DNA of 64,000 bases, from positions 620,001 through 684,000 of the forward strand of contig NZ_CP086615.1 of assembly GCF_020883455.1 (NCBI RefSeq), given 5' to 3'. Shown one piece after another: positions 22,496 to 35,511 of this stretch. The position numbers and the translations under genes were made by a program. Under the pieces are notes generated by a model that saw nothing but the letters and a program-made list of their open reading frames with translations, was not told the origin of the DNA and ran no database searches. The DNA comes from Spiribacter halobius (lineage in GTDB: Bacteria; Pseudomonadota; Gammaproteobacteria; Nitrococcales; Nitrococcaceae). How positions within the stretch are numbered: position 1 is the first letter of the stretch; each line of letters begins with the position of its first letter.

Positions 22496-22544
22496 TGGTG
22501 GGCCGTGCTGGATTCGAACCAGCGACCAGCGGATTAAAAGTCCG
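22496..22544 (-). repeat. Left attachment repeat: 49-bp tRNA-Lys 3' fragment
   Basis: This is identical over 49 bases to 35436-35484 and contains CCA, acceptor 3' strand, T arm, variable loop and the 3' side of the anticodon arm, but no D arm or 5' acceptor strand. It diverges from the intact tRNA gene right after tccg. It is the displaced attachment copy, not a functional tRNA. Confidence 0.92.
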
Positions 22545-22568
22545 CTCCGGCGCCATCCTGAAAACCGC

Positions 22569-22692
22569 GTCACAGCAGGGCTTCCCCTCCTGGATGCCGC
22601 TTGCTGAAAGGGTTTCCCTCTGACAGCAAGTGACATCGGTTGCCACCTTATACCCTCCTGTGCTGTGATTCAACTGTGACAGTCACAGTTGA
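22569..22692. promoter_or_regulatory. Left-end cluster of CTGTGAC/GTCACAG sites and int operator
   Basis: GTCACAG occurs at 22569-22575 and 22682-22688, CTGTGAC at 22674-22680, and a variant CTGTGAT at 22663-22669. The last two exact sites form a perfect palindrome with 11-bp arms, 22670-22692, over the putative int start. The same heptamer recurs at the right end. The arrangement suggests arm-type integrase binding sites, possibly with autoregulation of int. Confidence 0.55.
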
Positions 22693-23974
22693 GTCCGACC
22701 AAGTGACCAAGCTGAGCGAGGATTACCTCAAGGCCCTGGAGCCCCCGCAGAAGGGGCGCCGGATCGTGTTTGACGACCACAAGAACGCGCCCCGCGGGTT
22801 CGGGGTGCGGATCACCCCGAGCGGGACCGTCTCGTTCGTCCTGCGCTACCTCACGAAGGACGGCAAGGACCGGATGCTGACCATCGGCGAATGGGGCGAG
22901 AACCAGTGGAGCCTTGCTGCGGCCCGAAAGCAGGGCGGCGAGTACCGCAAGCAGATCGACAGCGGCGCGGACATCCTGGAAGAGCGCAGGGCGCTGCGTG
23001 CGGAGTTGACCGTGGCCGATACCGTGAAGCGCTTCTACGTGGGCAAGCGCGACCTGGAGAGCTTCCGCGACATCCGGTGCGTGTTCGAGAAGTACCTCCT
23101 GCCGCAGCTCGGCAAGAAGCGCATCCGTACCGTCCGGCGGCGGGACATCATCGCCATGATCGACCCGCTGGTGCAGACCCACCCGCGACAGGCCGGGAAG
23201 CTGCTCGGGTACTGCAAGCAGCTATTCGCCTGGGCAGAGGATCGGGAGATAGTCGAGGCGAGCCCCGTGGCGACGCTGCGGGCCTCGAACATGGGCAAGG
23301 GGCTGACCTCCAGCAAGCGTGCCCGGGTGCTCTCCGATGACGAGCTGCGCGCGTTCTGGGGGCGCGTGGACGACTGCGGCATGCACAAGCTCACCGCGCT
23401 CGCGCTGCGCATGGTGCTGGTCACCGCGCAGCGGCCGGGCGAGGTCGCCGGCATGCGGTGGGACGAGATCAAGGACAAGGTGTGGACCGTGCCAGCCTCC
23501 CGGCGGGGTAAGACGAACGATGAGCACACCGTCCCGCTGACCGCGACGGCCGAGGCGATCCTGGAGGCAGCTCGCGCCGAGGTCGCGCGGCTGTCGAAGC
23601 GCCGCCACAAGAAGCCGAGCGGGCATGTATTCGAGAGCCATCCAGGGGCGCCCGTGTCCACGGCCGCCATGTCCAAGGCGGTGATGCGCTACGCGAAGGC
23701 GCTGGCGAACCAACCGGACGGCCCGGAGGGGCAGTGGCGGCCCCATGATCTACGGCGGACCGCTCGCACAGGGCTCGCCGCTGCCGGCGTGAGTGCGGAG
23801 GTGGCGGAGGCCGTTGTGGGCCATGTCCGTCCCGGCGTGCGCGGCGTCTATGACCGCCATGGCTACGACCACGAGAAGCGCGTGGCGCTCGAGGCGTGGG
23901 AGCGGCGCTTGTTGCGGATCGCTGAGGGCAAGCGGGCCGAGGACAACGTAGTGCCGATTATGGGAGAAAAGTAA
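22676..23974 (+). CDS. int: P4-type tyrosine recombinase (integrase)
   Basis: Site-specific recombinase that should integrate and excise the island at tRNA-Lys. The N-terminal DUF4102-like arm-binding domain contains KGRRIVFDDHKNAPRGFGVR and SFVLRYLTKDGKDRMLTIGEW. A SAM-like core-binding domain follows. The catalytic domain carries Arg in TAQRPGEVAGMRWDEI, HDLRRTARTGLA (His-x-x-Arg), the VVGHVRPG His, and the nucleophile Tyr in RGVYDRHGYDHEKR. All catalytic residues are present. The start is uncertain: I chose GTG 22676, inside the palindrome; an in-frame TTG lies 36 bases upstream and neither has a good ribosome site. The product is 432 residues from this GTG. Confidence 0.9.
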   Translation: MTVTVESDQVTKLSEDYLKALEPPQKGRRIVFDDHKNAPRGFGVRITPSGTVSFVLRYLTKDGKDRMLTIGEWGENQWSLAAARKQGGEYRKQIDSGADILEERRALRAELTVADTVKRFYVGKRDLESFRDIRCVFEKYLLPQLGKKRIRTVRRRDIIAMIDPLVQTHPRQAGKLLGYCKQLFAWAEDREIVEASPVATLRASNMGKGLTSSKRARVLSDDELRAFWGRVDDCGMHKLTALALRMVLVTAQRPGEVAGMRWDEIKDKVWTVPASRRGKTNDEHTVPLTATAEAILEAARAEVARLSKRRHKKPSGHVFESHPGAPVSTAAMSKAVMRYAKALANQPDGPEGQWRPHDLRRTARTGLAAAGVSAEVAEAVVGHVRPGVRGVYDRHGYDHEKRVALEAWERRLLRIAEGKRAEDNVVPIMGEK

Positions 23975-24567
23975 TGCGCATCTCGCCCGCCCGAACGCCC
24001 GGCACCACGGCGCTGCGTCCGGTTGATGGCTCTCATGCGGACGACGATATGCATGCCGCGCACTTCCAGATTCTCAGGGAGCGATGGGACGAAGGTAAAA
24101 ACCCCGTTGCGGCCCTCGATGCGTTGGCCTACGCAGTCGAATCCGGCGTATATCCGCCCACGTGGGTTATAGATTGGTTGGGAGGGGCCGCTGTCGAGTA
24201 TCTCGATAACGGCGGCCGTGCAGATTTCAACGAGCTTCTCGGGCTTCGACGCGGGAGAGGCAAGGCGAATCCGGTTCAGGCGCAAATTGACCGTGACCGC
24301 ATGGAGAAACTGGCGCTCGCCGTTTGGATATGGAATCGGCTTCTCGGAGTTTCCATCGGCGATGCCGCTTATCGTGCTGTGCGTCGTGCCGAAGCGCGCG
24401 ACGAAGAGACGGTGCCCGACGTGAGCTGGGTTGAGGATCAGTGTCGCCGCAAATGGCTACGTCACTTTGATGCGCAGCGAGGCGTGTTCGAGGAGATTTT
24501 CTCAAGCGACGATGCGATAAAAGCATTCGTTGCATCGTTCCCATCAGATGCCCGCGCTATGGGCTGA
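23974..24567 (+). CDS. Hypothetical island protein downstream of int
   Basis: The 197-residue product starts at an ATG overlapping the int stop (TAATG), so it is translated with int. It has no signal or membrane segment. Residues 45-60 (AALDALAYAVESGVYP) and 105-140 are helical and hydrophobic-charged, and a WIWNRLLGVSIGDAAYRAV segment could be a helix-turn-helix-like region. I do not recognise a family. Its codon usage is less GC-biased than the chromosome, in keeping with horizontal origin. Confidence 0.6.
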   Translation: MRISPARTPGTTALRPVDGSHADDDMHAAHFQILRERWDEGKNPVAALDALAYAVESGVYPPTWVIDWLGGAAVEYLDNGGRADFNELLGLRRGRGKANPVQAQIDRDRMEKLALAVWIWNRLLGVSIGDAAYRAVRRAEARDEETVPDVSWVEDQCRRKWLRHFDAQRGVFEEIFSSDDAIKAFVASFPSDARAMG

Positions 24568-24644
24568 AAACCGCGTTTCGACACATTCGCAACCGCTAAC
24601 TCCCACCTGAAACTGGCGCCGTCACTGACACGACGGAGCCAGAC

Positions 24645-24848
24645 ATGCCCGATAGCACACCAGTCCTCACCACCGCAGAGGCCGCCCGTTACCTCCAGGT
24701 GTCCGAACGCTCCCTGATCCGGTGGCGCGTCCAGCGCCGCGGTCCCGCGTGGACCTACGCCGGCCGTCAGGTGCGCTACCGCATCGAGGACCTGGATGCC
24801 TACCTCTCCGGCCGCACACGTCGGCCCGTGGCTGAGGAGGCGGCTTGA
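24645..24848 (+). CDS. AlpA/excisionase-like helix-turn-helix protein
   Basis: This 67-residue protein is a MerR-like HTH_17 DNA-binding domain: LTTAEAARYLQVSERSLIRW then VQRRGPAWTYAGRQVRYRIEDLDAYL. In gram-negative satellites and islands, AlpA-like proteins of this size activate the excision and replication genes or act as the recombination directionality factor. It heads a long run of genes overlapping by one to four bases, so it is probably the first gene of the island's replication operon. Confidence 0.82.
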   Translation: MPDSTPVLTTAEAARYLQVSERSLIRWRVQRRGPAWTYAGRQVRYRIEDLDAYLSGRTRRPVAEEAA

Positions 24849-24849
24849 G

Positions 24850-25266
24850 ATGACCCAGAAACAGCAAACCCCCGCCCCGGTGGCAGCCGGGAACGGGGGC
24901 GATGAGCATTCGACAGCGCTCACCCGAGAGTCTACTCCGGTCGGCCGCCTGACGAAACGGGGACGGATCCTCCGGGCGCTGTACCTCGGCGAATCCCTCA
25001 CCCGCTTGGACGCATGGAAGCGCCACGGGGACGCGTGCCTGCCGTCCACTATCAGCGAGCTGCAATCCCGTTACGGCGTAACGATTGCCCGCCGTACTGA
25101 GCGCGTCGAGGGGCGCTTCTCAGCGGCGCATGTCGCTAGGTACTGGCTCGCCCCCACCGAGCGCGAGGCCGCCCAGTGCGCCCTTGCTTCGGAGCTGTGC
25201 CGGGCTGGTCTGTACCGGACCGTTGGCGAGGCCCTGGAGGCTCTACGCGAGGGGGCAGCAGCGTGA
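24850..25266 (+). CDS. Helix-turn-helix domain protein, island regulator candidate
   Basis: The 138-residue product has a polar N-terminal tail (about 30 residues, Gln/Pro/Thr rich) and then a winged-helix-like region: LTKRGRILRALYLGESLTRL, WKRHGDACLPSTISELQSRY, GVTIARRTERVEG, and RYWLAPTERE. The pattern helix - helix - recognition helix - wing is that of phage and island HTH proteins that choose between promoters. It starts one base after the stop of the AlpA-like gene. Function beyond DNA binding is not assignable. Confidence 0.65.
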   Translation: MTQKQQTPAPVAAGNGGDEHSTALTRESTPVGRLTKRGRILRALYLGESLTRLDAWKRHGDACLPSTISELQSRYGVTIARRTERVEGRFSAAHVARYWLAPTEREAAQCALASELCRAGLYRTVGEALEALREGAAA

Positions 25267-25823
25267 GCAAGAAGCGCCGCGCAGAGGCCCACGTCCGGCT
25301 CTATCGGCATGAGTTGGAGTGCGAGGCGTATCGCTCGCTCTCGACTGACGCCCGCGCACTGCTGGTCGAGTTTCGGGCGCTCTACGACGGCCGAGAGAAT
25401 CGCGTCCACATGAGCATCCGAGAAGCCATGCGGCGACTCGGGGTTGGACGGTGGCGTGCGGAAAAGGCTCTCTACGAACTGTCGGACCGGGGCTTTATTC
25501 GCCTGATGGAACCGGGCGGCTTTAGCCGGAAAGTCCGGCACGCGACGGTCTATGCACTCACGAATGAACCGCTGGAGGACCGGGACGGTGCCACCGCCCC
25601 GAAGGACTTCATGCGGTGGCACCAAAAATCCACGGTGTTAGTGGCCAGCACCGACGGTGTTAGTGACCAGCACCGAGAGCACTCCGAGAAGCCCCAAAAA
25701 GCCCCCCACGGTGTTGGTGACCAGCACCGTAACGGCCCCAAACCCGAAACCCACGGTGTTGGTGACCAGCACACAGATAGGTTACCAGGTGGGCTCCCCG
25801 CTGCTGGAGGGATGAAAACATGA
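25263..25823 (+). CDS. Winged-helix replication-initiator-like protein with embedded iterons
   Basis: The 186-residue product has an N-terminal winged-helix domain (SLSTDARALLVEFRALYDG, MSIREAMRRLGVGRWRAEKALYEL, DRGFIRLMEP) of the type seen in phage replication initiators and helix-turn-helix Rep-like proteins. The C-terminal 60 residues are low complexity with repeated DGVSDQH/HGVGDQH peptides. Those repeats are the coding consequence of four 19-bp near-palindromic DNA iterons at 25634-25773. A DNA-binding initiator whose gene carries its own iterons is the architecture of phage lambda gene O and ori. Start GTG overlaps the upstream stop (GTGA). Function is inferred; replication has not been shown. 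Confidence 0.65.
   Translation: MSKKRRAEAHVRLYRHELECEAYRSLSTDARALLVEFRALYDGRENRVHMSIREAMRRLGVGRWRAEKALYELSDRGFIRLMEPGGFSRKVRHATVYALTNEPLEDRDGATAPKDFMRWHQKSTVLVASTDGVSDQHREHSEKPQKAPHGVGDQHRNGPKPETHGVGDQHTDRLPGGLPAAGGMKT
25634..25773. repeat. Four 19-bp near-palindromic iterons (candidate origin)
   Basis: Copies at 25634-25652, 25656-25674, 25710-25728 and 25755-25773 follow the consensus GGTGTTGGTGACCAGCACC. Each is nearly self-complementary around its central G, and all are in the same orientation. Spacing is 22, 54 and 45 bases. The reading frame is not kept: the first copy is read in a different frame from the others, so selection is on the DNA and not on the peptide. Confidence 0.8.
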
Positions 25824-26026
25824 CCTCCCAGCACTTTGGGCATCGACTATCTGCAATTGGCGAATCCGCATTGCGCGAAATCGTGCGTGACTGCCTGCGG
25901 GCGAACGGCCTTGGCGCTGACCTTCCAGAGGAGCGGGCCATATCGGCGGCAATCGAGCTGATCGAAAACGGATTCGTGCGCCTGGAGTACGACGGCGAAT
26001 CCTACCGGATGGAGGTAGTGGAATGA
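25820..26026 (+). CDS. Small island protein of unknown function
   Basis: A 68-residue acidic protein starting at an ATG that overlaps the preceding stop (ATGA). The central part, LREIVRDCLRANGLGADLPEERAISAAIELIENGFVRLEYDG, alternates helix and strand; no family is recognised. It is followed by another 4-base overlap. The tight overlaps on both sides are the main evidence that it is real. Confidence 0.6.
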   Translation: MTSQHFGHRLSAIGESALREIVRDCLRANGLGADLPEERAISAAIELIENGFVRLEYDGESYRMEVVE

Positions 26027-26250
26027 TCGGTTGCCCATGTGGCGGCTTCACCTTTCCCGCATCGGAGCGCCGGCGTGGGCTGGTGCTCAGGTACGAGCGT
26101 TGTGGTGCGTGCGGGTGGTGCGATCGCTGGCGATTGGAGAAAGGCGGTGTGTGTATTTCTGAAGGGCAAATCGCACGTCGCGAATACCGAACTATTACGG
26201 AACCATTTCCGAAGGGTTCCCGAACCATTGGCGAGCGAGGTGAGCGGTGA
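26023..26250 (+). CDS. Small cysteine-rich protein (zinc-ribbon-like)
   Basis: A 75-residue basic protein with Cys-x-Cys near the start (IGCPCGG) and CGACGWCDRW around residues 28-37; the spacing could bind one zinc ion. It overlaps both neighbours by four bases. Phage and satellite genomes often carry such small zinc-ribbon proteins; the function is unknown. Confidence 0.6.
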   Translation: MIGCPCGGFTFPASERRRGLVLRYERCGACGWCDRWRLEKGGVCISEGQIARREYRTITEPFPKGSRTIGERGER

Positions 26251-26516
26251 ACAATGTAATTGACCTCAACTCAAAGCGCCGTAGCAACGCGGCAGACTCT
26301 TACTTCGGCGTCTGCCCAGAATGCGGGGGCTGTGACGGGTATCTGAATATTGGCCGCAATCACTGGTTCCTTTGCGAGCGCCATAGGACATGCTGGTGCG
26401 TGGGCGCAAACCTTTTCTCCAGCTGGCAGGACGAGACAGAAACCGATTGGCGCCGCAACGCGGACAAGTTGCGCAGCTACCGGGACGTGACTTCAACGGG
26501 CGGAGGTGCCGCATGA
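26247..26516 (+). CDS. Small zinc-finger-like island protein
   Basis: The 89-residue product starts with GTG in a GTGA overlap. It has CPECGGCDGY, CERHRTCWC and a tryptophan-rich segment (FSSWQDETETDW). The pattern is widespread in phage proteins of unknown role, and in some cases forms a zinc knuckle. It overlaps the next gene by four bases. Confidence 0.6.
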   Translation: MNNVIDLNSKRRSNAADSYFGVCPECGGCDGYLNIGRNHWFLCERHRTCWCVGANLFSSWQDETETDWRRNADKLRSYRDVTSTGGGAA

Positions 26517-26701
26517 ACGAACCGATCCAGAAACGCCCACAGGTAGGCGATTGGGTCCAGGTCGGCGACCTGCCGGAGCTGTTCAAGGTCATCGACCGCG
26601 ACGGCGGGCTCTACGTGCTGGAAAGCAAACACGGTGCCCGGTGCCGGGCTGGGGTGCTGGTTGTGCGATTGGTTGATGAGCAGAAAAAGGAGGCAGCGTG
26701 A
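26513..26701 (+). CDS. Small KOW/SH3-like island protein
   Basis: A 62-residue product starting MNEPIQKRPQVGDWVQVGDL. The strands VGDWVQV, LFKVIDRDGG, LYVLESKHGAR and VLVVRLV suggest a small beta-barrel. The ATG overlaps the preceding stop. Nothing more can be assigned. Confidence 0.55.
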   Translation: MNEPIQKRPQVGDWVQVGDLPELFKVIDRDGGLYVLESKHGARCRAGVLVVRLVDEQKKEAA

Positions 26702-26862
26702 GAAAACCGAACGCAGGGTGGCGTCGCCGGCTGGTGCGCAAGATTCGCCGCGAGCTGGAAGGCAAGGGGCTGACGGCGAACCAGCGGCGGAAACTCCGCA
26801 TAGAGGAACAGGGCGCGGATTCTGTGCCCTGGGGGGATCCGGGTGAGCGTAGCTCGGCTTAA
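26698..26862 (+). CDS. Very small basic protein
   Basis: A GTG start in a GTGA overlap opens a 54-residue basic frame (VRKPNAGWRRRLVRKIRREL, then ADSVPWGDPGERSSA). It continues the chain of overlapping genes, and its 3' end overlaps the next gene by 20 bases. Coding status rests on this context and on continued use of the chain, so it is tentative. Confidence 0.4.
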   Translation: MRKPNAGWRRRLVRKIRRELEGKGLTANQRRKLRIEEQGADSVPWGDPGERSSA

Positions 26863-27247
26863 CCGCCTGGTGGAGGCCGTGGACGACCCGGAGCTGCAAG
26901 AGTGGCTCCGGGGCGGCCTCGAGGCCTGGCGGGCCGGTGAGGACCTGGACCGGGCGCTCGGTCTGAGCGGCCCGCAGGCGACCAAGGCGAGAGACGCGGC
27001 GATCCGCCGGTGCGCCGACCTCCTGGACCGGCATGGCGCACTCTCCACCTGGGCGAAAGCCGGTCACGTAGAGGCGGCCATGAAGCATTACGAGAGCATC
27101 GTCTGGCCGCGCCGCCATTCGCTGCCGAAGCGATTGGCAGATACGCCATTGAAGGCCGCATTGCACGAATGGATGACGATGGAAACCGCGAACGGCGTTC
27201 GCCCCATTCGGGTACAGCGTGCCCTCTACGAGATCCTGCGTTTCTGA
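26843..27247 (+). CDS. Hypothetical island protein
   Basis: The 134-residue, mainly helical product begins with GTG. Notable segments are LQEWLRGGLEAWRAGEDLDRALGL, KARDAAIRRCADLLD and HYESIVWPRRHSLPKRLADT. Its size and position just before the structural genes fit late-gene regulators or head-associated proteins, but I recognise no domain. The gene ends 68 bases before the capsid gene. Confidence 0.55.
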   Translation: MSVARLNRLVEAVDDPELQEWLRGGLEAWRAGEDLDRALGLSGPQATKARDAAIRRCADLLDRHGALSTWAKAGHVEAAMKHYESIVWPRRHSLPKRLADTPLKAALHEWMTMETANGVRPIRVQRALYEILRF

Positions 27248-27315
27248 ATGAAAAGTCCGCCCCATTCAGAAAAACGCCGGTAGCCTTGAAACTAGGCAAA
27301 CCGGAGTAACGCAGG

Positions 27316-28392
27316 ATGCTTGAAGCAACCGCCAACACTCGAGACTTCACCGTCTCGGACATCCGCGATGCGGGCGCCGATCTATTCGCCAAGGCGATGG
27401 GCGCACGCACCACGAATTCGCACCCCGTGGCCGAGCAGCTCCGAAATCGGGAACTGAGCCTGGCCGAGGCTGCATACATTCTCGGCGAGCCCGAGGTGAA
27501 GCGGCGCGGCGCAAGCGGCAAGACCGCAGGCCAGGTGGTCGGCTTCGGCCTCACTACCGATGACTTCGGCTCGGTGATGGAGGCCGCCGTCGGGCGCGTC
27601 GTCTCGCAGGCGTACCTTGCCGCGAGCGAGCATCGAAACCTGGTGCTCCCCTGGCCGGTGCCGAACTACCAGCCGGCACAGGTGGCCACCATTGACGTGG
27701 ACGCCGACACGGGCGAGATCGGCGAGCTGGAGGAAATCCCCAGCGTTCAGGTGAGCGTGCCGCCCGGCCATACCGGCAGTGTCGAGAGCTACGCGGCCAA
27801 CCTGATCGTTTCCTACAAGCTCGTCGTCAATGACCAGCTCGACGTGATCGCCACCACGGCCCGCGCCATTGCGGTCTCGGCAGCTCGGCGCGAGGCCCGC
27901 CGACTCTACGAGTTCCTCGAAGGTAACCCCACCATGGGTGACGGTGCCGCGATGTTCTCGTCTGGCGCGGGGAACCTGGTAACCGGCGTGAGCGGAGTCA
28001 CGGCCGCGAACCTCGGCACCGCTATGGCCGCCCTGCGCAACCAGAAGACGCCAGGCGACCAGTACGCCAACCACCGGGTGCAGACCCTCATCGTACCGCC
28101 GGCTGAGGAGCAGCCTACCTACCAGGCGCTCCGCGAGACCGGCATCGAAGGTGTCTCGGTGATCGCTGCGCCCTGGGTCGCCTCAAGCAACTGGTACGCG
28201 ATGGCCGCCCCGGAAGTGGCCCCCACCGTGGCGATGATGTACCTCGCCCCTCGCGGCGATACGGCCATGCGCACAGTGCGGACCTACCGCCGGCCGGGCG
28301 ACCGCCTGAACCGTCGCACCGGCGTCGAGATTGCCCACGACTTCGGATTCGCCCCCGTGTCCCGGGTGGGCATCGTCAAGCTGACCAACTGA
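27316..28392 (+). CDS. Phage major capsid protein (HK97-fold, Mu gpT-like)
   Basis: The 358-residue protein matches the pattern of phage capsid proteins of the Mu gpT / prohead protease-fused group: an N-terminal helical scaffold-like part (residues 1-90), then SYAANLIVSYKLVVNDQLDVIATTARAIAVSAARREARRLYEFLEGNPTMGDG, VTAANLGTAMAALRNQKTPG, HRVQTLIVPPAEEQPTYQALRETG, and the C-terminal EIAHDFGFAPVSRVGIVKL. These correspond to the long-helix and A-domain parts of the fold. It is expected to form the head shell. No protease or portal gene is upstream, which is odd for a normal phage. Confidence 0.8.
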   Translation: MLEATANTRDFTVSDIRDAGADLFAKAMGARTTNSHPVAEQLRNRELSLAEAAYILGEPEVKRRGASGKTAGQVVGFGLTTDDFGSVMEAAVGRVVSQAYLAASEHRNLVLPWPVPNYQPAQVATIDVDADTGEIGELEEIPSVQVSVPPGHTGSVESYAANLIVSYKLVVNDQLDVIATTARAIAVSAARREARRLYEFLEGNPTMGDGAAMFSSGAGNLVTGVSGVTAANLGTAMAALRNQKTPGDQYANHRVQTLIVPPAEEQPTYQALRETGIEGVSVIAAPWVASSNWYAMAAPEVAPTVAMMYLAPRGDTAMRTVRTYRRPGDRLNRRTGVEIAHDFGFAPVSRVGIVKLTN

Positions 28393-28402
28393 GGTGACGA
28401 CC

Positions 28403-28627
28403 ATGCGCAAGCGCAAGGATGAAACCCCTGACGAGGCAGTCGGCCGTCTGATGGCTGAGGCAGCCAAGAAGGCGGCACCCAAGGTCCGGGAGGCCTACGA
28501 GCTGGCCGTCGCCGAGAACGGACACACAGGCTCAGTGCTGGACCTGGTGGAGGACGTCCTCCAGCCGGCGCTCGCCGAGCACTTCGGCGAGGAATACACG
28601 CAGCGGCGCAAGCCGTTCGCGGCGTGA
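28403..28627 (+). CDS. Small protein after the capsid gene
   Basis: The 74-residue product, rich in Glu, Ala and Lys, starts at ATG 28403 after GAGGTGA. LMAEAAKKAAPKVREAYELAVAENG is amphipathic helix. It could be a head-associated or regulatory protein; no family is recognised. Ends immediately before the gene-free candidate packaging region. Confidence 0.55.
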   Translation: MRKRKDETPDEAVGRLMAEAAKKAAPKVREAYELAVAENGHTGSVLDLVEDVLQPALAEHFGEEYTQRRKPFAA

Positions 28628-28958
28628 GCGGTATCACCAGTCATGGTGTACATCGGGGGGCATGGATATGGCGGTCTACTCGGGCTAGTGCCGTCGCCCC
28701 GAAGCAACCCCGAGAGGAGCGGTGCGCGGCTACTCCTTCGGCGCACGCGGCTCCCCGTGCCGGTCTGCCTCTCAGGCCGGGATCGCCCTCGCGGCGCTGC
28801 ACAGAAACGGCGGGCTCAGCAGTATCAGCAGCGGCACGGGCGAGGCCCCCGGGCCTTCGGGTCCCCCTTGGCACTCTCTGTTGCGGGTCATTCGAGGCGC
28901 GAAAGTTGTCCAGTCACAGCACCGCCTATGGTTCCTTCCCGAGTGAGGCGATAGCCGT
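28628..28958 (+). other. Non-coding 331-base region before terS: cos/pac candidate
   Basis: No convincing gene is present. It lies just before a Nu1-type small terminase gene, where lambda-like phages place cosN and cosB. It contains a strong G/C inverted repeat around 28847-28868 (cccgggccttcgggtccc) and a lower-GC patch just before terS. Short open frames exist but lack a ribosome site and codon structure. The packaging role is inference from position. Confidence 0.4.
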
Positions 28959-29444
28959 ATGAAGCTGAGCAAGCAGCACCTCGCGGACCTGTTCGGCGTC
29001 ACGGTGCGCACGGTCTCCGAGTGGCAGCGCGATACCGAGTTCCCGGCACCGACGCGGGAAGGCCGCAGGAACCTCTACGACGCGGCCGCAGTGGTCGCCT
29101 GGTGGCGTGACCGGGAGATTGCCCGGCTCATCGAGGGCGAGGACGGCAAGCTGCTCGACTTGAACCACGAGCGCGCCCGGCTCGCGAAGGCGCAGGCCGA
29201 CCGACAGGAATACGCGCTGGCCCGCGAGCGCGGCGAGCTGGTCGAGGCGGCAGCGGTTGGTGAGGTGGTCGGCGACGACTACACGCGGATGCGCGCCCGA
29301 CTGCTGGCGTTGCCGACGAAGGCCGCCGCGATGGTCACGCCCGAGACCGACACCGCGGTCTGCCAGCAGATCCTCGACGACCTGGTGCGCGAGGCCCTCA
29401 ACGAGCTGAGCGATCCGAACACCGTCTACCAGGAGGCCCTGTAA
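28959..29444 (+). CDS. Phage terminase small subunit, Nu1 type
   Basis: The 161-residue protein begins with a winged-helix/HTH domain typical of Nu1: MKLSKQHLADLFGVTVRTVSEW, FPAPTREGRRNLYDAAAVVAWW. A long helix follows (LDLNHERARLAKAQADRQEYALARERGELVE), with the C terminus expected to bind the large subunit. Nu1 recognises cos sites to start DNA packaging. No large subunit is encoded here, so packaging would need a helper phage's TerL. The stop overlaps the tape measure start. Confidence 0.85.
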   Translation: MKLSKQHLADLFGVTVRTVSEWQRDTEFPAPTREGRRNLYDAAAVVAWWRDREIARLIEGEDGKLLDLNHERARLAKAQADRQEYALARERGELVEAAAVGEVVGDDYTRMRARLLALPTKAAAMVTPETDTAVCQQILDDLVREALNELSDPNTVYQEAL

Positions 29445-30826
29445 TGGCAGGCCGGACCTACACCTTTGGCGTTCGCGTCACCGGCGACGCCCGCGGCGGC
29501 GTCCAGGCGATGGAGATGACCGAGCGCGAGCTCAAGGAACTGCGCCGAGAGCTACAGCGCACGGACCGAGGTTTCAAGGACAGCCGCCGAGGATTCAATC
29601 GCTGGGCACGCGGAATGCTCAGCGTGCGCAACGCCATCGGCCCGCTGGTCGGTGTGGCCGGCGCGGGCATGCTCGCCCGCCTTGGGCAGCAAAGTATCTC
29701 CGCGGCCTCTGAGGTCGGTAAGGCGGCGGATACCGCTGGCGTCGGTGCTGAGTCCCTTCAGGAGTTGCGCTTCGCCCTCGGCGAGCTGGCGAACGTCAGC
29801 GAACAGCAGACCGATACCGCCCTCCAGCGGTTGAACCGTCGCCTCGGCCTTGCCGCGGATGGCAGCGGTGCCGCCAAGGACACATTCGATGAACTCGGCA
29901 TCGCGATGCGTGACGCCGGTGGCCGTGTCCGGGATACCGAGGTGGTCCTGGAAGAAGCGCTGCGGTCGCTCGCCGAGATCGACAACAACGCCACCCGGGC
30001 GGCCAAGGCATCGGAGCTGTTCGGCGAGGAGATGGGGCCACGGATCGCCGCCTCGCTCTCTGACGGCATCCGCGCTATGGAGGACTCCCGAGATCGAGCC
30101 CACGAGCTGAACGCGGTGCTCGGCGAGGACCTGGTGGAGAGCGCCGAGAAGTTCGACGACTGGCTGAGGCGGCTCTCAATTCGTCTCAGGGGCGGATTCC
30201 GCAGGGAGCTGTTGGAGGCCGGAGCGGCGCTGGAGCGGTTCTTCGAGATCGGTGAGGGCGAGGACCTGGCCTTCCGCATTGGCCGGCGCCTGGAGACGCT
30301 GGAAGAGGCGACGATGGGCCGGCTGGAACTCCCGGCGCGGCGCGTTGCGGAGCTTCGACAGGAGATCGTCTGGCTCGCCTCCGAGATGGACGCGCTGAAT
30401 CCCGGGCGCGTCCAGATGGACCCGATTCAGAACCAGTCCACCGAGCTGCCTCTGCCGGGGCTGCGATTCGGCTTTGCCGAAGACACGCAACGCGCTCTGG
30501 ATGCCGCGGCCCGTCGCCGACAGGCCCGCCGGTTCGCTGCCCTGAACTACGGCGGCAGCGCCGGCCCTGATCCCCTCGTAGACCTGCCCGAAGTCACCGC
30601 CGAGGCCGCTCAAGGTTACCGGCGCATCGCTGAGGAGGCGGAGAACGCCGGAGAGAGCACCCGCAGTCTTGACCGCGCCGCCCATGACCTCGGCTTCACG
30701 TTCGCCAGCGCCTTCGAGGACGCCATTCTCAACTTCGAGAGTTTCGAGGACGTGGTGAAAAGCGGCCTGCGGGACATTCAGGCCATCACCCATCGACCCT
30801 TCATCACTGCGAGGTGTGAACCGTGA
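29444..30826 (+). CDS. Truncated phage tail tape measure protein
   Basis: The 460-residue product opens TYTFGVRVTGDARGGVQAME, a tail-length tape measure N terminus, followed by helical regions with MAGRTYTF, ISAASEVGKAADTAGVGAESLQELRFA, LSDGIRAMEDSRDRAHELNAVLGED, and ends with DLGFTFASAFEDAILNFESFEDVVKSGLRDIQAI. In full-length homologues that last motif is followed by a long C-terminal part. Here it ends within a dozen unrelated residues (THRPFITARCEP), suggesting a deletion junction near 30787. A functional tail would not be built from this alone. Confidence 0.78.
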   Translation: MAGRTYTFGVRVTGDARGGVQAMEMTERELKELRRELQRTDRGFKDSRRGFNRWARGMLSVRNAIGPLVGVAGAGMLARLGQQSISAASEVGKAADTAGVGAESLQELRFALGELANVSEQQTDTALQRLNRRLGLAADGSGAAKDTFDELGIAMRDAGGRVRDTEVVLEEALRSLAEIDNNATRAAKASELFGEEMGPRIAASLSDGIRAMEDSRDRAHELNAVLGEDLVESAEKFDDWLRRLSIRLRGGFRRELLEAGAALERFFEIGEGEDLAFRIGRRLETLEEATMGRLELPARRVAELRQEIVWLASEMDALNPGRVQMDPIQNQSTELPLPGLRFGFAEDTQRALDAAARRRQARRFAALNYGGSAGPDPLVDLPEVTAEAAQGYRRIAEEAENAGESTRSLDRAAHDLGFTFASAFEDAILNFESFEDVVKSGLRDIQAITHRPFITARCEP

Positions 30827-31614
30827 CGATCTACAACCTGTTGCTGAAGGCCGACGAAGCGGTCGCCATGAGCGACACGAAGGCTATCAACCACGACGGC
30901 TCGCAGGTGACTCTGCACAAGGTGGACGCGCTGCCGGGCGCCATCCTGACGGGCTCGGGGAACAACACCGTGTTCGGCAAGTTCGCCCGCCTCGTCTACG
31001 AGCGCGGCTATACCGACTTCGACGGTATCGCGGCCGACATCGCCGAGCTGGCCCACGATGCGCTCGCGGAGCGCCTGGAGGAGCTGCGCAAGCCCGGCTC
31101 GCCGGAGGTGCCCGAGCTGGTGCGCCAGTTCCGCAATCTGATGGATCAGGGCGACCCCGAAGGCCTGTGCGGTGGCGTGAATTACCAGATGATCGTGGCC
31201 GGTCCGTCGAAGCGCCTCGGACGGATGGCGGGGGTGATGACCGACTTCCATAGCGGCAAGGTTCAGGAACTCGAGGTGCCGAGCTTCTCCGGCAACGACC
31301 CGGACGTATGCCCCCCGGCCGCCGCATCGGGCGTTCCCACCATCGAGCGCCAGGCTGCGGTGCTACGGGCGCAGTACCATTCGAGCGTGCGGTGGGCGCG
31401 GGAGACTGGCTTCAAGGGCTGCGAGCCGGAGCTGGTCGGCGGCGGTGACGTGGAGGCCACCATCATCCGCATGGACGGCGAAGTCACCCGGCACACCCTC
31501 GGGCCGCTGGTGGAGCAGGCGCGCTCAGCCAAGGTAGGGCGCAATGAGCCCTGCCCCTGCGGGAGCGGGCAGAAGTACAAGCGGTGTTGCCTGAGGACGC
31601 CCACCGCCGCATAG
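30823..31614 (+). CDS. SEC-C domain protein with possible Ntn-hydrolase-like N terminus
   Basis: The 263-residue product starts with GTG in a GTGA overlap. The N-terminal half (MTIYNLLLKADEAVAMSDTK, ALPGAILTGSGNNTVFGKF) shows the strand order of proteasome-like Ntn hydrolases, though I cannot confirm catalytic residues. The C-terminal residues about 235-258 are a SEC-C zinc-binding motif (VGRNEPCPCGSGQKYKRCC). SEC-C domains are found on many toxin, repair and secretion-associated proteins. It sits after a deleted tail gene, where phages carry moron genes, so a host-benefit or anti-phage role is possible but unproved. Confidence 0.65.
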   Translation: MTIYNLLLKADEAVAMSDTKAINHDGSQVTLHKVDALPGAILTGSGNNTVFGKFARLVYERGYTDFDGIAADIAELAHDALAERLEELRKPGSPEVPELVRQFRNLMDQGDPEGLCGGVNYQMIVAGPSKRLGRMAGVMTDFHSGKVQELEVPSFSGNDPDVCPPAAASGVPTIERQAAVLRAQYHSSVRWARETGFKGCEPELVGGGDVEATIIRMDGEVTRHTLGPLVEQARSAKVGRNEPCPCGSGQKYKRCCLRTPTAA

Positions 31615-31841
31615 CGGCTGACTCCCTGCCTGCGGTCGTCGCCTTCCGGGGCGACGGTGGGCATGCGAAGGATAGCAGCGCGGTGCGGCGCAGCATGGAA
31701 AGTTGAACATGAGCCGCAGCGAGCCCATACTGTGGATGTTCCCGCTCTGCCTCAGGCATCGGGCATTCGAGACTACGCAAAGGTCCGCCCAGCGTAGCCG
31801 TGCCGGCCAAAGCGATGACAAGCTTGGCCGGTGACGCGTTC

Positions 31842-31864
31842 AAGGCCTCCTTCGGGAGGCCTTT
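31842..31864 (+). terminator. Terminator hairpin used as intron target
   Basis: AAGGCCTCC-TTCG-GGAGGCCTT is a perfect 9-bp stem with a UUCG-type loop, followed by TGTCGTT and then the intron 5' end. It lies 227 bases after the SEC-C gene. The 31615-31841 stretch before it holds no gene that I can support. Confidence 0.85.
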
Positions 31865-31870
31865 GTCGTT

Positions 31871-33795
31871 GTGCGCCGGGCACGGCGCGCCGGCGCCGTG
31901 ACCGGCGCTGGATAACCGGTGAGCGAAAGCGAGCCGGGAAGTGGCCTGGGGGTGGAAGTCCCCTGCGGGCCCTGGTGACGGGAACCGCGAGCCGAACGGC
32001 AAGGGCATCATCGTGAGGTGCTGTCTGAAGGAAGCCTCAGGCGAATCTCCGACCCGACGAACAGGAACCGCATAGGAGGCGTGTCGTCGCGGGCGAGCAG
32101 GCAACGATCTGCGAACCCGATGTCACCCCGGAGCGGCGATACGTAGATGCGGCGGGTGTGGAGTGAAGGTCACGCGCCTTACCCCGGGAGGTCTGTCGGG
32201 CTGCTGTGAGCTACCGGCGCCGCGAGGTGCCGGGAAGGCCTGGCAGAAGTCAGCCGAGGCCATAGTAGTCGCCGGCACAGGGCGGCGAAGGGCCGAACGC
32301 GTGGAGCCGATCCGGCACTGGAGTGCTCGATGGCCGAAGCAGGCGTAGGCGAGGCGGCTGAGAGGTTGCCGCATCCCCGGAGGGCTGACGGCGGAACCGT
32401 CGGAGGTACGGGTGATGGACGCCAAGCGGCTGCGGCGCGCTCGAGACGAGCCGGGTCCGAGTCGACGGCGCTGCTGGAGGCGGCGCTGTGTCGCGAGAAC
32501 CTGATGGCGGCCTACCGGCGGGTGGTGCGCAACCGGGGGGCCCCCGGCATCGACGGAGTGACCGTCGATGAGCTGTGGGCCTACTGCCAGGCGCACTGGT
32601 CGTCGATCCGCGAGCGGCTGCTGGAGGGGACGTACCGTCCCTCGCCGGTACGGGAGGTGAAGATCCCCAAGCCCGGGGGTGGCTCCCGGGCACTGGGCAT
32701 CCCGACCGTGGTCGACCGGCTGATCCAGCAGGCGCTGGTGCAGGTGCTCACCCCGATCCTCGACCCGACGTTCTCGGGTGAGAGCTACGGCTTTCGCCCG
32801 GGGCGCAGTGCCCATCAGGCCGTCGAGCGTGCCCGCGGGCACGTGGCGGCGGGGCAGCGCTGGGTCGTGGACCTCGATCTGGCGCAGTTCTTCGACCGGG
32901 TCAATCATGACGTGCTGATGGCCCGGTTAGCGCGTCGGATCGAGGACCGGCGGGTGCTGCGCCTGATCCGGCGCTACCTGCAGGCCGGGGTGATGGCCGG
33001 TGGCGTGGTCTCGCCGCGGGCGGCGGGGACGCCGCAGGGCGGGCCGCTCTCGCCCCTGCTCTCGAACGTCCTGCTGGACGAGCTCGACCGGGAGCTGGAG
33101 CGGCGCGGCCACCGCTTCGTGCGTTACGCCGATGACGTCAGCGTCTACGTGCGCTCGCCCGAAGCGGGTGCGCGCGTGCTGGCATCGCTGGAGCGGTTCC
33201 TGTGGCGGCGGCTGCGCCTGGTGGTCAACCGTGAGAAGAGTGCGGTGGACCGCCCGTGGAAGCGCACGCTGCTCGGCTACAGCATGACCGCGCACCGTGA
33301 GCCGCGGCTGCGGGTGGCCCCCAGCTCGGTGCAGCGGCTCAAGGCCCGCCTGCGGGCCGCGCTGCGCCGCGGGCGGGGCCGCCACCTGCAGCGGGTGCTG
33401 GCGGCGCTGCAGCCGCTCATCCGGGGCTGGGTGGCCTACTTCCGCTTCGCCGAAGTCAAGGCGGCGTTCGAGGCGCTGGACCAGTGGCTCCGGCGCCGCC
33501 TGCGTTGCCTGCTGTGGCGGCAGTGGAAGCGCTGGCGCACCCGCGCCCGGCGGCTGATGCAGCACGGTGTCGAGCGCCTGCGAGCGTATCGCTCCGCCAC
33601 CAACGGGCGTGGCCCGTGGTGGAACGCGGGGGCGGCCCACATGCACGTGGCCATCCCCGCGCGCTGGCTGCACCGTCAGGGTCTCGTGAGCTTCCTCGGC
33701 GAGCACCGTCGACTTGCGAGCGCTGCGTGAACCGCCGTATACGGCCCCGTACGTACGGTGGTGTGAGAGCCGGGGCGGGTGACCGCCCCGGCTAC
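31871..33795 (+). mobile_element. Class C group II intron
   Basis: The 5' end GTGCGCC follows directly after a terminator hairpin and TTGT-like bases, the known target preference of bacterial class C introns. About 460 bases of structured RNA sequence precede the maturase gene. After the maturase stop comes a domain V-like hairpin (gaaccgccgta / tacggtggtgt, 33729-33765) and a domain VI-like stem (gccggggcgg / ccgccccggc), ending near ctac. The 3' boundary at 33795 is approximate by a few bases. The maturase is intact, so mobility is possible. Confidence 0.85.
32330..33730 (+). CDS. ltrA: Group II intron reverse transcriptase/maturase
   Basis: The protein aids splicing of its own intron and reverse-transcribes it during retrohoming. 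The 466-residue frame includes RENLMAAYRRVVRNRGAPGIDGVTVDEL (RT0/RT1), REVKIPKPGGGSRALGIPTVVDR (RT2), YGFRPGRSAHQAV, VVDLDLAQFFDRVNHD (first catalytic Asp), GTPQGGPLSPLLSNVLLDELD, and FVRYADDVSVYV with the YADD catalytic pair. A maturase X domain (LIRGWVAYFRFAEVK) follows. No HNH endonuclease domain, as expected for class C. The translation start is uncertain; the conserved part begins near residue 45. It overlaps domain IV of the intron. Confidence 0.9.
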   Translation: MAEAGVGEAAERLPHPRRADGGTVGGTGDGRQAAAARSRRAGSESTALLEAALCRENLMAAYRRVVRNRGAPGIDGVTVDELWAYCQAHWSSIRERLLEGTYRPSPVREVKIPKPGGGSRALGIPTVVDRLIQQALVQVLTPILDPTFSGESYGFRPGRSAHQAVERARGHVAAGQRWVVDLDLAQFFDRVNHDVLMARLARRIEDRRVLRLIRRYLQAGVMAGGVVSPRAAGTPQGGPLSPLLSNVLLDELDRELERRGHRFVRYADDVSVYVRSPEAGARVLASLERFLWRRLRLVVNREKSAVDRPWKRTLLGYSMTAHREPRLRVAPSSVQRLKARLRAALRRGRGRHLQRVLAALQPLIRGWVAYFRFAEVKAAFEALDQWLRRRLRCLLWRQWKRWRTRARRLMQHGVERLRAYRSATNGRGPWWNAGAAHMHVAIPARWLHRQGLVSFLGEHRRLASAA

Positions 33796-33805
33796 TCGAT
33801 TCTGG

Positions 33806-34243
33806 CTATAGGTGCGGCTCTAGGCGGCCAAGGTTCAATGCTTGTAGGACGCAGGCGTAAACATCTCGCATCCTCTCTCGGCCGAGCCGGTCCTTAAAGT
33901 ACAACCGCTTGCCGGTATTTGGATCCCGCTTGCCGAGCCGAATCAGTTCTAGGCGATGGAAGCCTACCGCATAGACCATGTCGCCTTTAACCCATGACCT
34001 CCGGTCCTGGAAGCGGCCAAGCTGCGGTAGGCACGCGCGAGGTAGCTCCAAGTGGTAGGGCATGACGGGATTCGGGGGTGTCGTGCTCAGCGCCACAACG
34101 GTCACCAGCCTTGGCCGACCCTTCATCTCCGGCGAGAGCACAATGACTGGCCGCTCGGGCTTAACCATCTCAGGTTCCTTAAACCCGCGGGAGAAGTCAC
34201 ACAGCAGTATTTGGCCGACCTTGGGGTGGATCGTTATTGGCAT
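33806..34243 (-). CDS. Type II toxin-antitoxin PemK/MazF-like toxin
   Basis: The 145-residue protein begins MPITIHPKVGQILLCDFSRG, and has KPERPVIVLSPEMKGRPRLVTVVALS, the conserved beta-barrel of MazF/PemK RNases. It ends VYAVGFHRLELIRLGKR and a C-terminal helical tail. MazF-type toxins cleave mRNA at short sequences. No obvious antitoxin overlaps the start; a small gene upstream on the same strand is separated by 141 bases. So either the antitoxin is elsewhere or this is a phage MazF-like protein of other use. The stop lies about 10 bases from the intron 3' end, so the intron inserted just beyond the toxin gene. Confidence 0.75.
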   Translation of the reverse strand: MPITIHPKVGQILLCDFSRGFKEPEMVKPERPVIVLSPEMKGRPRLVTVVALSTTPPNPVMPYHLELPRACLPQLGRFQDRRSWVKGDMVYAVGFHRLELIRLGKRDPNTGKRLYFKDRLGRERMRDVYACVLQALNLGRLEPHL

Positions 34244-34340
34244 CGCGCGACTGTAGCTGATCGGTCATTGGGGCCAAAGGGGCGCCGTTGCTCCGAATTT
34301 CTCACCCTTATGAATGGCGCATTCTCACCATCGTGAAATC

Positions 34341-34365
34341 AAAAAGCCCGGCGCGTGGCCGGGCT
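34341..34365 (-). terminator. Rho-independent terminator of the right-end operon
   Basis: On the minus strand, agcccggc and gccgggct pair over 8 bases around a 5-base loop, followed by TTTTTG. It lies 20 bases past the stop of the 115-residue gene, ending the leftward three-gene operon. Confidence 0.85.
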
Positions 34366-34384
34366 CTGTGGGGCTGGTGTTGAG

Positions 34385-34732
34385 TCAGTTGATCGACTCA
34401 CCCATCGGGATGGGGGTTATCTCCGTCATGTTGACGAGCAATCCGACCGACCCTCGCGGCAACCCATGTTCCAAGATCAAAGCCTCAGCCAAATCCTTGG
34501 GCTTTGCTTGGAGCGGTACGGCGGCGACGTAGTGTCCTTGCCGCTTCTCGCTGAGCCTGGCTAGCACCGTATCCGGGGCTCCGACTTCCTCCAGTAGCGA
34601 CTGGATGGACCGATACCCGACGTCTGTGAGGGGCTGTACCGTTACGGAGTTGCTGTCTTCAATGACCATCGCATGGAAGCCCTGCGCAATGGCCTCCTCA
34701 ATGGCGGCGATACCTTTATCCCTGTCACTCAT
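34385..34732 (-). CDS. Hypothetical protein, last gene of the right-end operon
   Basis: The 115-residue product starts MSDRDKGIAAIEEAIAQGFH and has VTVQPLTDVGYRSIQSLLEE and VPLQAKPKDLAEALILEHGLP. Mixed alpha/beta; no signal or membrane segment. The start overlaps the stop of the 51-residue gene upstream (TGATG). No family is recognised. Position near the att site suggests a regulator or immunity function, without proof. Confidence 0.55.
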   Translation of the reverse strand: MSDRDKGIAAIEEAIAQGFHAMVIEDSNSVTVQPLTDVGYRSIQSLLEEVGAPDTVLARLSEKRQGHYVAAVPLQAKPKDLAEALILEHGLPRGSVGLLVNMTEITPIPMGESIN

Positions 34733-34887
34733 CAGTCGGCCTCCTCTCGGGCGTTGTGTAGGGCATCCACAGGGCAATATAGCGACCTGACCAGCTCCAG
34801 CCCCTCCAGATACCGCCGATAGTCCACGGCGGCCTCCTCGCTGTCCGGCGCATACCCGTAGTGGGCGCACCAGCGCTCGAAGCTCAT
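34732..34887 (-). CDS. Small hypothetical protein, right-end operon
   Basis: A 51-residue acidic protein (MSFERWCAHYGYAPDSEEAAVDYRRYLEGLELVRSLY...) between two genes that overlap it by one and four bases. The tryptophan/tyrosine-rich, mostly helical make-up resembles small phage proteins with no known role. Confidence 0.5.
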   Translation of the reverse strand: MSFERWCAHYGYAPDSEEAAVDYRRYLEGLELVRSLYCPVDALHNAREEAD

Positions 34888-35333
34888 CCCGCGGCCCTCC
34901 CGGAGAGGTACTCCTCCAGGGCGCCGTCCGCCTCTCGCAACGCGGCGACCACCGACAGCACGGCGCTGGCCTCGTCGTTCTCCTGGTCCCGCAGGCGAAA
35001 GCCGATGCTCTCCAGTGTCCGCACGGCATCGGTGAGCGTGGCGGCGGCGGCCTCGATGTGGGGCATACGTAGGCGCTGGCGCAGGCTGCCCTCGGCGGGC
35101 TTCGTCTCCCGCATGTGCGCCAGCTCCGCCTGCTCGTGGCGCTGAGCGGCTTTCTCGATCTGCGACACAAGGCACGCGATCAGCCCCTCCAGCTCGCGCT
35201 GCGCCTCGACGTCTTGCAGGTTGTCGCCGAGATCTTCAGCACAGGAGGCGATGATGCGGCGGGCGGCGGTTCTGGCGTGGTTCAGCTCCACGCCGGCGTC
35301 GCTGAACAGGGCGTCAAAGGATTCGGATGGCAT
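34884..35333 (-). CDS. Helical hypothetical protein, first gene of the right-end operon
   Basis: The 149-residue acidic product is nearly all helix (ELNHARTAARRIIASCAEDLGDNLQDVE, ACLVSQIEKAAQRHEQAELAHM, EAAAATLTDAVRTLESIGFRLRDQ) and ends GALEEYLSGRAAG. No family is recognised. The stop overlaps the next start as ATGA. Its promoter must lie between it and the att site, where CTGTGAC sites also occur. Confidence 0.55.
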   Translation of the reverse strand: MPSESFDALFSDAGVELNHARTAARRIIASCAEDLGDNLQDVEAQRELEGLIACLVSQIEKAAQRHEQAELAHMRETKPAEGSLRQRLRMPHIEAAAATLTDAVRTLESIGFRLRDQENDEASAVLSVVAALREADGALEEYLSGRAAG

Positions 35334-35379
35334 GGTACTTCCTCCGCGTTGGTATGAGCGGGGAAGCCCGGTGACTATG

Positions 35380-35411
35380 CTGTGACTTGGCGGGGAAAAA
35401 GGCAGTCACAG
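35380..35411. promoter_or_regulatory. Right-end CTGTGAC/GTCACAG site pair
   Basis: CTGTGAC at 35380-35386 and GTCACAG at 35405-35411 form an inverted pair with an 18-base spacer, 25 bases inside the right attachment repeat. Identical heptamers flank the left attachment repeat, supporting an integrase arm-site role. Confidence 0.5.
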
Positions 35412-35435
35412 CGATCCGCAACTGCCTGTTTTTTC

Positions 35436-35511
35436 TGGTGGGCCGTGCTGGATTCGAACCAGCGACCAGCGGATTAAAAGTCCGATGCTCTACCAGCTGA
35501 GCTAACGGCCC
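35436..35511 (-). tRNA. tRNA-Lys (anticodon UUU)
   Basis: A complete 76-base cloverleaf with encoded CCA: acceptor stem ggccgt-type pairing, D arm (gctc...gagc), anticodon loop CTTTTAA, T arm with GTTCGAA. The 3' half (35436-35484) is the island's attachment site and was restored by the island's end, so the gene stays intact. Confidence 0.95.

Follow-up and report, generated by a model that had tools for sequence, protein, structure and literature searches.

Four 19-bp near-palindromic repeats, GGTGTTRGTGRCCAGCAC(C), lie at the 3' end of a winged-helix gene (25263-25823), all on the + strand, in the 64-kb stretch of DNA analysed here (the window), and we consider it reasonably probable that this gene encodes a short replication initiator and that its 3' end is the origin of the integrated island that contains it. 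What was computed in support of this reading comprises the repeats, their phased spacing, their independence of reading frame, the covariation of recognition helix and repeat, a stability minimum at a fixed place, the gene module and its tRNA borders; binding by dimers, melting, replisome recruitment, and replication (versus transcription) as the outcome are steps that we infer.

A scan of the window allowing up to three mismatches returned five rows, namely the four iterons and the opposite strand of the third, and the same scan found none in 100 dinucleotide shuffles, confirming the four near-palindromes that an earlier, sequence-only reading had reported in the 3' part of the gene:

25634-25652, + strand: iteron 1, GGTGTTAGTGGCCAGCACC, 6 of 9 dyad pairs, in a frame that differs from the other copies
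25656-25674, + strand: iteron 2, GGTGTTAGTGACCAGCACC, 7 of 9 dyad pairs
25710-25728, + strand: iteron 3, GGTGTTGGTGACCAGCACC, 8 of 9 dyad pairs
25755-25773, + strand: iteron 4, GGTGTTGGTGACCAGCACA, 7 of 9 dyad pairs

The iterons start 22, 54 and 45 bp apart. Iteron 1 is translated as TVLVAST in one frame, and iterons 2-4 share another, in which they encode GVSDQHR, GVGDQHR and GVGDQHT; the claim of that reading that the copies stand in different frames thus holds for copy 1 against copies 2-4, which makes two frames, not four. As single 19-mers, 39 places in this GC-rich window reach 8 or 9 of 9 pairs, and the third iteron is the sole one of the four among them. The signal in the window is repetition and spacing, rather than the palindrome by itself.

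The gene sits in an int-AlpA-winged helix module within an island whose ends are identical copies of a tRNA-Lys 3' end (exact 14-mers pair 22496-22544 with 35436-35484):

22496-35484, strand not assigned: integrated island, ~13 kb, with identical 49-nt copies of the tRNA-Lys 3' end as direct repeats at its two ends
22640-23974, + strand: tyrosine integrase (PF00589 E 4.4e-22, phrog_1 E 1.9e-58)
24645-24848, + strand: AlpA/excisionase-type small helix-turn-helix protein (HTH_17 E 5.3e-13)
24850-25266, + strand: second small winged-helix-like protein (HTH_39 E 5.5e-4, under the Pfam cut-off; phrog_4973 E 5.3e-7), overlapping the start of the initiator-like gene
25263-25823, + strand: winged-helix initiator-like gene, GTG start, 186 aa
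25820-26026, + strand: ORF of 68 aa that follows the initiator-like gene and overlaps its stop codon
35436-35511, - strand: tRNA-Lys(TTT), the island integration site, overlapping the right 49-nt repeat

The AlpA-type protein also matches phrog_66, excisionase and transcriptional regulator (E 5e-10), and the 68-aa ORF was without match in Pfam and PHROG. A Pfam search with the initiator-like protein up to E 5 gave no match, and its PHROG matches are weak and to replication proteins only (phrog_270, replication initiation protein, E 0.011; phrog_186, DnaD-like helicase loader, E 0.028). An AlphaFold2 model built on a 30-row alignment predicts a winged helix at about residues 11-100 (block pLDDT 88-98) followed by a disordered tail, the repeat-coding residues 121-186 having pLDDT 51-59.

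Relatives of this protein were reached through plasmids: tblastn returned two distant homologues, in Tritonibacter and Sinorhizobium meliloti, that have the same domain with different repeats behind it, and family profiles were built from these two. With the profiles, the family was found in 29 of 398 proteobacterial genomes (E <= 1e-4, own genome included), in 20 of 385 genomes of an alphaproteobacterial set (E <= 1e-5), at 71 named genome loci, mainly in Rhodobacterales and Rhizobiales, and on 7 viral contigs. Searches with single members were less productive. The window protein was the only clear match among 144 related genomes (two others reached E 6e-4 and 7.5e-4), no match in 50,697 phage records was obtained by tblastn with any of three members (the window protein, L008 or L088), and pattern scans with the window protein (viral and genome contigs) and with L007 (viral contigs) gave no confirmed relative; the iteron pattern itself hit the viral contigs at two one-copy places, with no array in the 400 nt on either side. 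Searches of open-access full text, a scope outside which most subscription papers fall, showed no description of the family.

For analysis of the repeats, 92 tails were assembled from the window, the two plasmid loci, 12 proteobacterial-set loci (chosen by eye from 29 others, partly for visible repeats) and 77 of the 78 named-genome and viral loci; 17 proteobacterial-set loci, 22 alphaproteobacterial-set loci and the incomplete L129 were left out. Removal of near-duplicates reduced the 92 to 83 non-redundant tails. A repeat was called significant if its score exceeded that of all 20 dinucleotide shuffles and was at least 5, and by this definition 46 of the 83 tails carry significant repeats (34 of 68 when only members from the named-genome and viral-contig sets are counted), leaving 37 without; in one of the 46, L090, the repeats are oddly placed and probably a chance hit. 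A score of at least 7 was reached by 36 of the 83 tails, compared with 0/82 for the 400 nt of winged-helix coding sequence before the tail, 0/76 for upstream and 1/82 for downstream controls from the same loci, the single exception being L086, in which an insertion has shifted the array into the downstream region. The repeat sequence varies from member to member (for example, GTCCGTTCTGAGCGGAC in L064, GTCACGAAAACCGTGAC in L041 and GTCCCAAAAAACGGGAC in L089), and the consensus dyad is significant (p < 0.05) in 26 of the 46. Among 25 non-significant tails that have the AT-rich element described below, mean dyad peaks at -23, -67/-69, -122 and -143/-144 fit the array (z 1.8-2.9); unpredicted peaks occur as well (-167, -30/-31, -16/-17), and the highest of all (z 4.5) falls within the element itself.

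The commonest start-to-start spacings in the family are 22 (28 times), 44 (18), 33 (11), 53 (11), 32 (10) and 45 bp (7), and the 118 spacings of at most 70 bp give R 0.737 at a period of 10.75 bp versus R 0.141 at 3. Because the members are related, permutation and phase tests overstate independence, and the phase test was therefore repeated with 15-23 representatives (45-60% identity limits), for which R was 0.66-0.72 and was equalled in none of 5000 random sets. As the period is 10.75 bp and not 3, the sites face one side of the helix, a phasing that would not be expected from protein coding.

The coding frames of the repeats point the same way. Among the 46 members with significant repeats, the coding copies occupy at least two frames in 26, every copy is outside the gene in 8, and copies occur both inside and outside it in 27 (these classes overlap), while in 5 there are at least two coding copies, all in one frame. 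The stop codon ranges in position from before the first repeat to beyond the last, and falls within 60 nt of the tail start in 14 of 92 relatives. In three relatives (L086, L111 and L115), an insertion of 0.7-1.3 kb separates the end of the gene from the whole array with its element; in L115, the first 60 nt on the array side repeat the gene's tail at 93% identity, as if the array region were a recombination site. That the repeats are maintained for the peptide sequence they encode, as might be supposed from the three window copies that share a frame and from the five one-frame members, is hardly credible given the multi-frame and out-of-gene copies, spacings that do not follow 3 and the predicted disorder of the tail. 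The earlier proposal that the DNA is conserved independently of the peptide is thereby borne out, both by the frames and by the arrays left whole beyond an insertion, and comparison of homologues gave the reverse of the pattern named beforehand as telling against it, in which the peptide is kept and the palindrome lost.

If the protein reads its own repeats, its recognition helix and the repeat sequence would be expected to change together. Repeat-profile distances among the 46 members were compared with distances in a 13-residue recognition-helix segment and with those in the rest of the domain, giving Spearman correlations of 0.617 for the recognition helix and 0.379 for the rest. The partial correlation of helix with repeat, with the rest of the domain held constant, was 0.534 (0/499 permutations as high), versus 0.107 for the reverse partial (rest of the domain, helix constant). 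This covariation supports the suggestion of the sequence-only reading that the winged helix binds the repeats.

The last repeat is followed directly by a conserved AT-rich element, which has the form CATATATACATCTAGCCATAGGCAGG in Rhodobacterales. Of the 83 tails, 63 pass the element score and 20, including the window, fall below the cut. This score rewards AT and requires CCA, so that the AT-richness and the CCA of the element are built into it, and for this reason the stability minimum was re-anchored on the last iteron. So measured, the position of the least stable 15 nt within 150 nt of the last iteron is between +11 and +20 for 20 of the 27 members, and +13 for the window, with a narrow lead (-1.257 versus -1.267 for the next placement). 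The centre of the last repeat is 18-25 nt from the CCA in 34 of 38 members and 21 nt from it in the window:

25774-25790, + strand: degenerate AT-rich element, CAGATAGGTTACCAGGT, under the element score cut

Neither this element nor the island borders had been noted in the sequence-only reading. The AT-rich stretch is short, about 14 bp, and the exact DnaA box was absent from 22,050 nt of origin regions (about 1 expected, so a weak result), with 5 in 82,600 control nt. The element also resembles a promoter with a start site, joined in some relatives by a Shine-Dalgarno sequence.

This resemblance underlies the main alternative, in which the protein regulates transcription, the repeats serve as its operators, with the last one over the -35 region, and the element is a -10 region and start site (TATAnT, five to six bases, CAT), upstream copies on one helical face helping to activate or repress the downstream genes. 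A DNA-binding domain alone is natural for such a protein, and phased operators are common in regulation. By our own arithmetic, the distance to the CCA places the last repeat at about -34 to -16 if the CAT is the start. In 34 of 47 loci the next called gene runs in the same direction, at a distance within 150 nt in 18, and in L090, L091, L094, L100, L101 and L116 an ATG preceded by AGG-rich sequence lies 15-18 nt past the CCA. Against these points, the next called gene is opposite in the remaining 13 of the 47 loci, five islands have the element with no + strand ATG ORF of at least 50 aa starting within 300 nt, start codons past the element are not enriched (38/63, versus 56% of 1161 random places), and a -35/-10 consensus scan of the window found 0 promoters (0.4 expected). 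The profile, fold and PHROG matches favour initiators, and if the protein were a regulator the scanned elements would have no replication gene. We regard this explanation as a real possibility, if a rather unlikely one; the roles of origin and operator are compatible with each other.

The matches in question tentatively place the domain near known initiators. In a profile search of the PDB, RepA_N initiator domains (4pt7, 4pta, 4pql, 5kbj) came top over the whole domain (E 0.0009-0.0017), and ordinary regulators matched over short stretches at similar E; Foldseek again placed the 4pt7, 4pta, 4pql and 5kbj entries first (E 8.2e-4). With VIA-align, RepA_N domains scored Z 8.6-10.0, unrelated winged helices 8.5 and the PLE RepA domain 4ro3 7.7. 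Pfam RepA_N (PF06970) was matched weakly by 4 of 30 relatives (best E 9.1e-4) and not by the window protein. In PHROG, the window protein and its relatives match mostly initiators and DnaD-like loaders, with the N-terminal part only, and relatives weakly match the O-like phrog_345, phrog_678 and phrog_391, where the window protein matches only phrog_270 and phrog_186. From these searches the domain resembles that of RepA_N and lambda-O-type initiators, minus their C-terminal domain.

The genes around the initiator-like gene recur in the relatives. In the 59 loci for which 3.5 kb or more of upstream sequence was available, an integrase was present in 55, AlpA in 49 and the second winged-helix-like protein in 22, at median places of -2107, -621 and -299; by our own arithmetic the window places of -1956, -516 and -205 are close to these medians. 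A tRNA gene was found in 35 of the 53 loci with enough flank on both sides, and in 29 of these 35 an exact 14-18-nt repeat that starts at the tRNA 3' end recurs across the gene, delimiting islands of 3.9-9.9 kb (median 5.8 kb), which are like the 13-kb tRNA-Lys island of the window. The element was found by pattern in 28 of the 29 tRNA-bounded islands, L118 being without; in L113 the call came from a loose pattern at a distance from the gene, and a narrower pattern did not confirm it. Cargo varies, with MmeI-type restriction in L079 and a terminase small subunit in L075. DUF6074, considered as a partner, was rejected, being downstream in only 9 of 59 loci, all of the rhizobia-like group. No primase was found among 60 cargo ORFs of 26 relatives' islands in the Pfam families listed (25 of 32), and the window and scanned relatives gave no other replication gene except a topoisomerase-like ORF in L141. 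That ORF (L141:1387-3789, 800 aa) lies in a small prophage, directly upstream of the initiator-like gene and overlapping its start, and its matches to HATPase_c (E 1e-6) and the TOP6A/Spo11 Toprim domain (E 3.6e-6) suggest a fused topoisomerase VI-like protein, which we take to be Topo VIII.

Two further protein families were observed in these islands. By eye, 11 of 26 Rhodobacterales-type islands encode a protein of ~200-255 aa that has a CHxGG motif and, close to the N terminus, an MGGxGSG motif. At six loci, a family of 173-192 aa that ends in a GG-AIV motif starts 15-18 nt past the element, with no match in PHROG or Pfam for the three of the six scanned:

L090:1557-2084: 173-192-aa family
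L091:10528-11103: 173-192-aa family
L094:10558-11076: 173-192-aa family
L100:578-1102: 173-192-aa family
L101:5216-5740: 173-192-aa family
L116:10541-11113: 173-192-aa family

The window island itself runs from the integrase through a 197-aa ORF, AlpA/HTH_17, the small winged-helix-like gene, the initiator-like gene and small ORFs to genes for a capsid-like protein (PF25209 E 4.1e-26), a Nu1-like terminase small subunit (28959-29444, phrog_57 E 1.1e-35), a tape-measure-like protein and a SEC-C protein, followed by a group II intron at 32007-33800 and then a gene for a PemK-like toxin. The capsid-like, Nu1-like and tape-measure-like genes adjoin at 27316-30826, as a satellite-like set or a prophage remnant. 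The intron has three Rfam matches, and the ORF at 32330-33730 within it looks, by eye, like its reverse transcriptase; the PemK/MazF-like toxin gene (33806-34243, minus strand, E 5.4e-10) lies near the island end. At the other end, a perfect 23-bp palindrome, TCAACTGTGACAGTCACAGTTGA, occupies 22670-22692 within the 5' end of the integrase ORF (first-start-codon call) and is possibly a site for the integrase or AlpA. Neither a large terminase nor a portal was matched in the scanned ORFs of the island, and the window ORFs scanned, which did not include the small ORFs at 26698 and 28394, gave no match to a primase, a helicase or a loader. Elsewhere in the genome, a single GpA-type large-terminase match (G000:C1:2766971-2767720, at 2.77 Mb, outside the window) possibly marks a putative helper prophage.

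This gene content bears on two further explanations. The window copy could be a decayed initiator gene, no longer functional in an island that has itself lost many of its parts. Its element is degenerate and scores below the cut; the island has capsid, terminase-small-subunit-like and tape-measure-like genes, and neither a large terminase nor a portal was matched in the ORFs scanned; and a group II intron interrupts the island. Yet the reading frame is open, the four repeats are clean, their 22/54/45 spacing and the stability minimum are as in the family, and the missing C-terminal domain is common to the family, all of which makes decay improbable. The repeats might also be a packaging or partition site bound by the protein, as binding to repeats within or beside the gene is known both for small terminase subunits and for partition proteins. 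We reject this as very improbable, because the island has its separate Nu1-like terminase small subunit and no partition ATPase was matched among the genes scanned.

The favoured reading, that of an origin within an initiator gene, can be set beside several known systems. In pSK41, four Rep boxes are located within rep; the protein can do without the linker segment specified by these boxes, and its C-terminal domain is required (PMC5703833). RepA_N proteins (pSK41, pTZ2162) have a winged-helix N-terminal DNA-binding domain, to which the predicted winged helix of the window family gives its best PDB matches, and iterons within the rep gene, as in the window, where all four are inside the gene, and in relatives, where they are inside or just past it. 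RepA_N proteins also have a host-recruiting C-terminal domain (for DnaG in pSK41), whereas the window family is without one, its gene ending with or before the linker; unlike RepA_N systems, its array ends in a fixed AT-rich element. RepA of PLE, a Vibrio satellite, is described as binding semi-palindromic iterons, its DNA-binding domain covarying with the origin (PMC7145576, PMC8263062); there the iterons lie in a noncoding region, whereas those of the window lie within the gene.

For lambda and Stx phages, one account gives inverted-repeat iterons and an AT-rich tract within the initiator gene, O, and names genes O and P (PMC7466680). The window shares inverted-repeat iterons with an adjacent AT-rich tract in the gene, its element being degenerate. 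The C-terminal domain of lambda O binds P, and lambda O extends past the origin and works with P, whereas the window-family gene stops at or soon after the array; the model of the window protein predicts no folded C-terminal part of the lambda type, and no loader was found among the ORFs scanned. The parallel with phage lambda is therefore incomplete: lambda O depends on a C-terminal domain, and the window protein has none.

Among islands, gram-negative PICIs have int, alpA and a rep gene followed by ori (PMC6092414), with origins made of iterons and an AT-rich region (PMC6092414, PMC10803314). PICI and PICMI elements are like the window and its relatives in their integrase, AlpA, tRNA or other specific site, gene order and small size, but they carry a primase (pri-rep or prim), and none was matched in the window ORFs scanned or among the Pfam families listed for the relatives' cargo, for which reason we do not class the window island as a PICI. 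PICI iterons form two sets flanking the AT-rich region, whereas those of the window family stand on one side, in the gene. Finally, the PFGI-1/pKLC102-type oriV of an integrative island is described as four direct repeats of a 23-bp palindrome adjoining AT-rich DNA (PMC2647930); it lies outside a coding gene on a large conjugative island, whereas the window array is inside a gene on a small one.

As a working model, AlpA and the integrase would excise the island, and the winged helix, probably as a dimer, would bind each near-palindromic iteron. Because the iterons are whole helical turns apart, the bound dimers are proposed to sit on one DNA face, where they would wrap or bend the DNA; the strain would open the weak AT-rich element just beyond the last iteron, where the replisome of either the host or a helper phage would load. 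As the C-terminal recruitment domain is absent, either a further partner or direct recruitment must be assumed.

The origin reading is favoured by the place of the gene after AlpA, like that of rep and ori in PICIs, by the array and the weak element, and by the lack of any other replication gene matched, and also by the five islands that keep the element though they have no nearby downstream + strand ORF. Counting against it are the missing C-terminal domain, the short AT stretch, the absence of a DnaA box and the promoter-like look of the element; the 37/83 tails without significant repeat and the 20/83, window included, below the element score; and a fold match only slightly above that of unrelated winged helices, together with 50,697 phage records that gave no match to the three members tried. 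The autonomous origin proposed from the sequence therefore stands as the best, inferred reading, with its lambda parallel reduced to a partial one and the explanation by a regulator and promoter remaining beside it.

Initiators with the origin inside their gene are known; what would be new here is that arrangement without a C-terminal domain. To our knowledge, origins inside initiator genes (lambda, RepA_N plasmids) always come with a C-terminal recruitment domain. We tentatively suggest, as a doubtful extension, that these are widespread minimal integrative elements whose replicon is one DNA-binding domain plus a phased array of ~150 bp with an opening element, with no primase, helicase, loader or recruitment domain; the array may perhaps also serve as the cargo promoter, copying and expression being switched by one complex, and helix and iterons might be exchanged as a pair to give new compatibility groups. 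The family marks tiny tRNA islands of Rhodobacterales, whose cargo can include restriction or terminase-small-subunit genes, and offers dozens of natural pairs of recognition helix and repeat in a fixed geometry for the study of specificity change. If a bare DNA-binding domain suffices, these islands would be among the smallest natural replicons and would provide a clean test of which tasks of an initiator are necessary.
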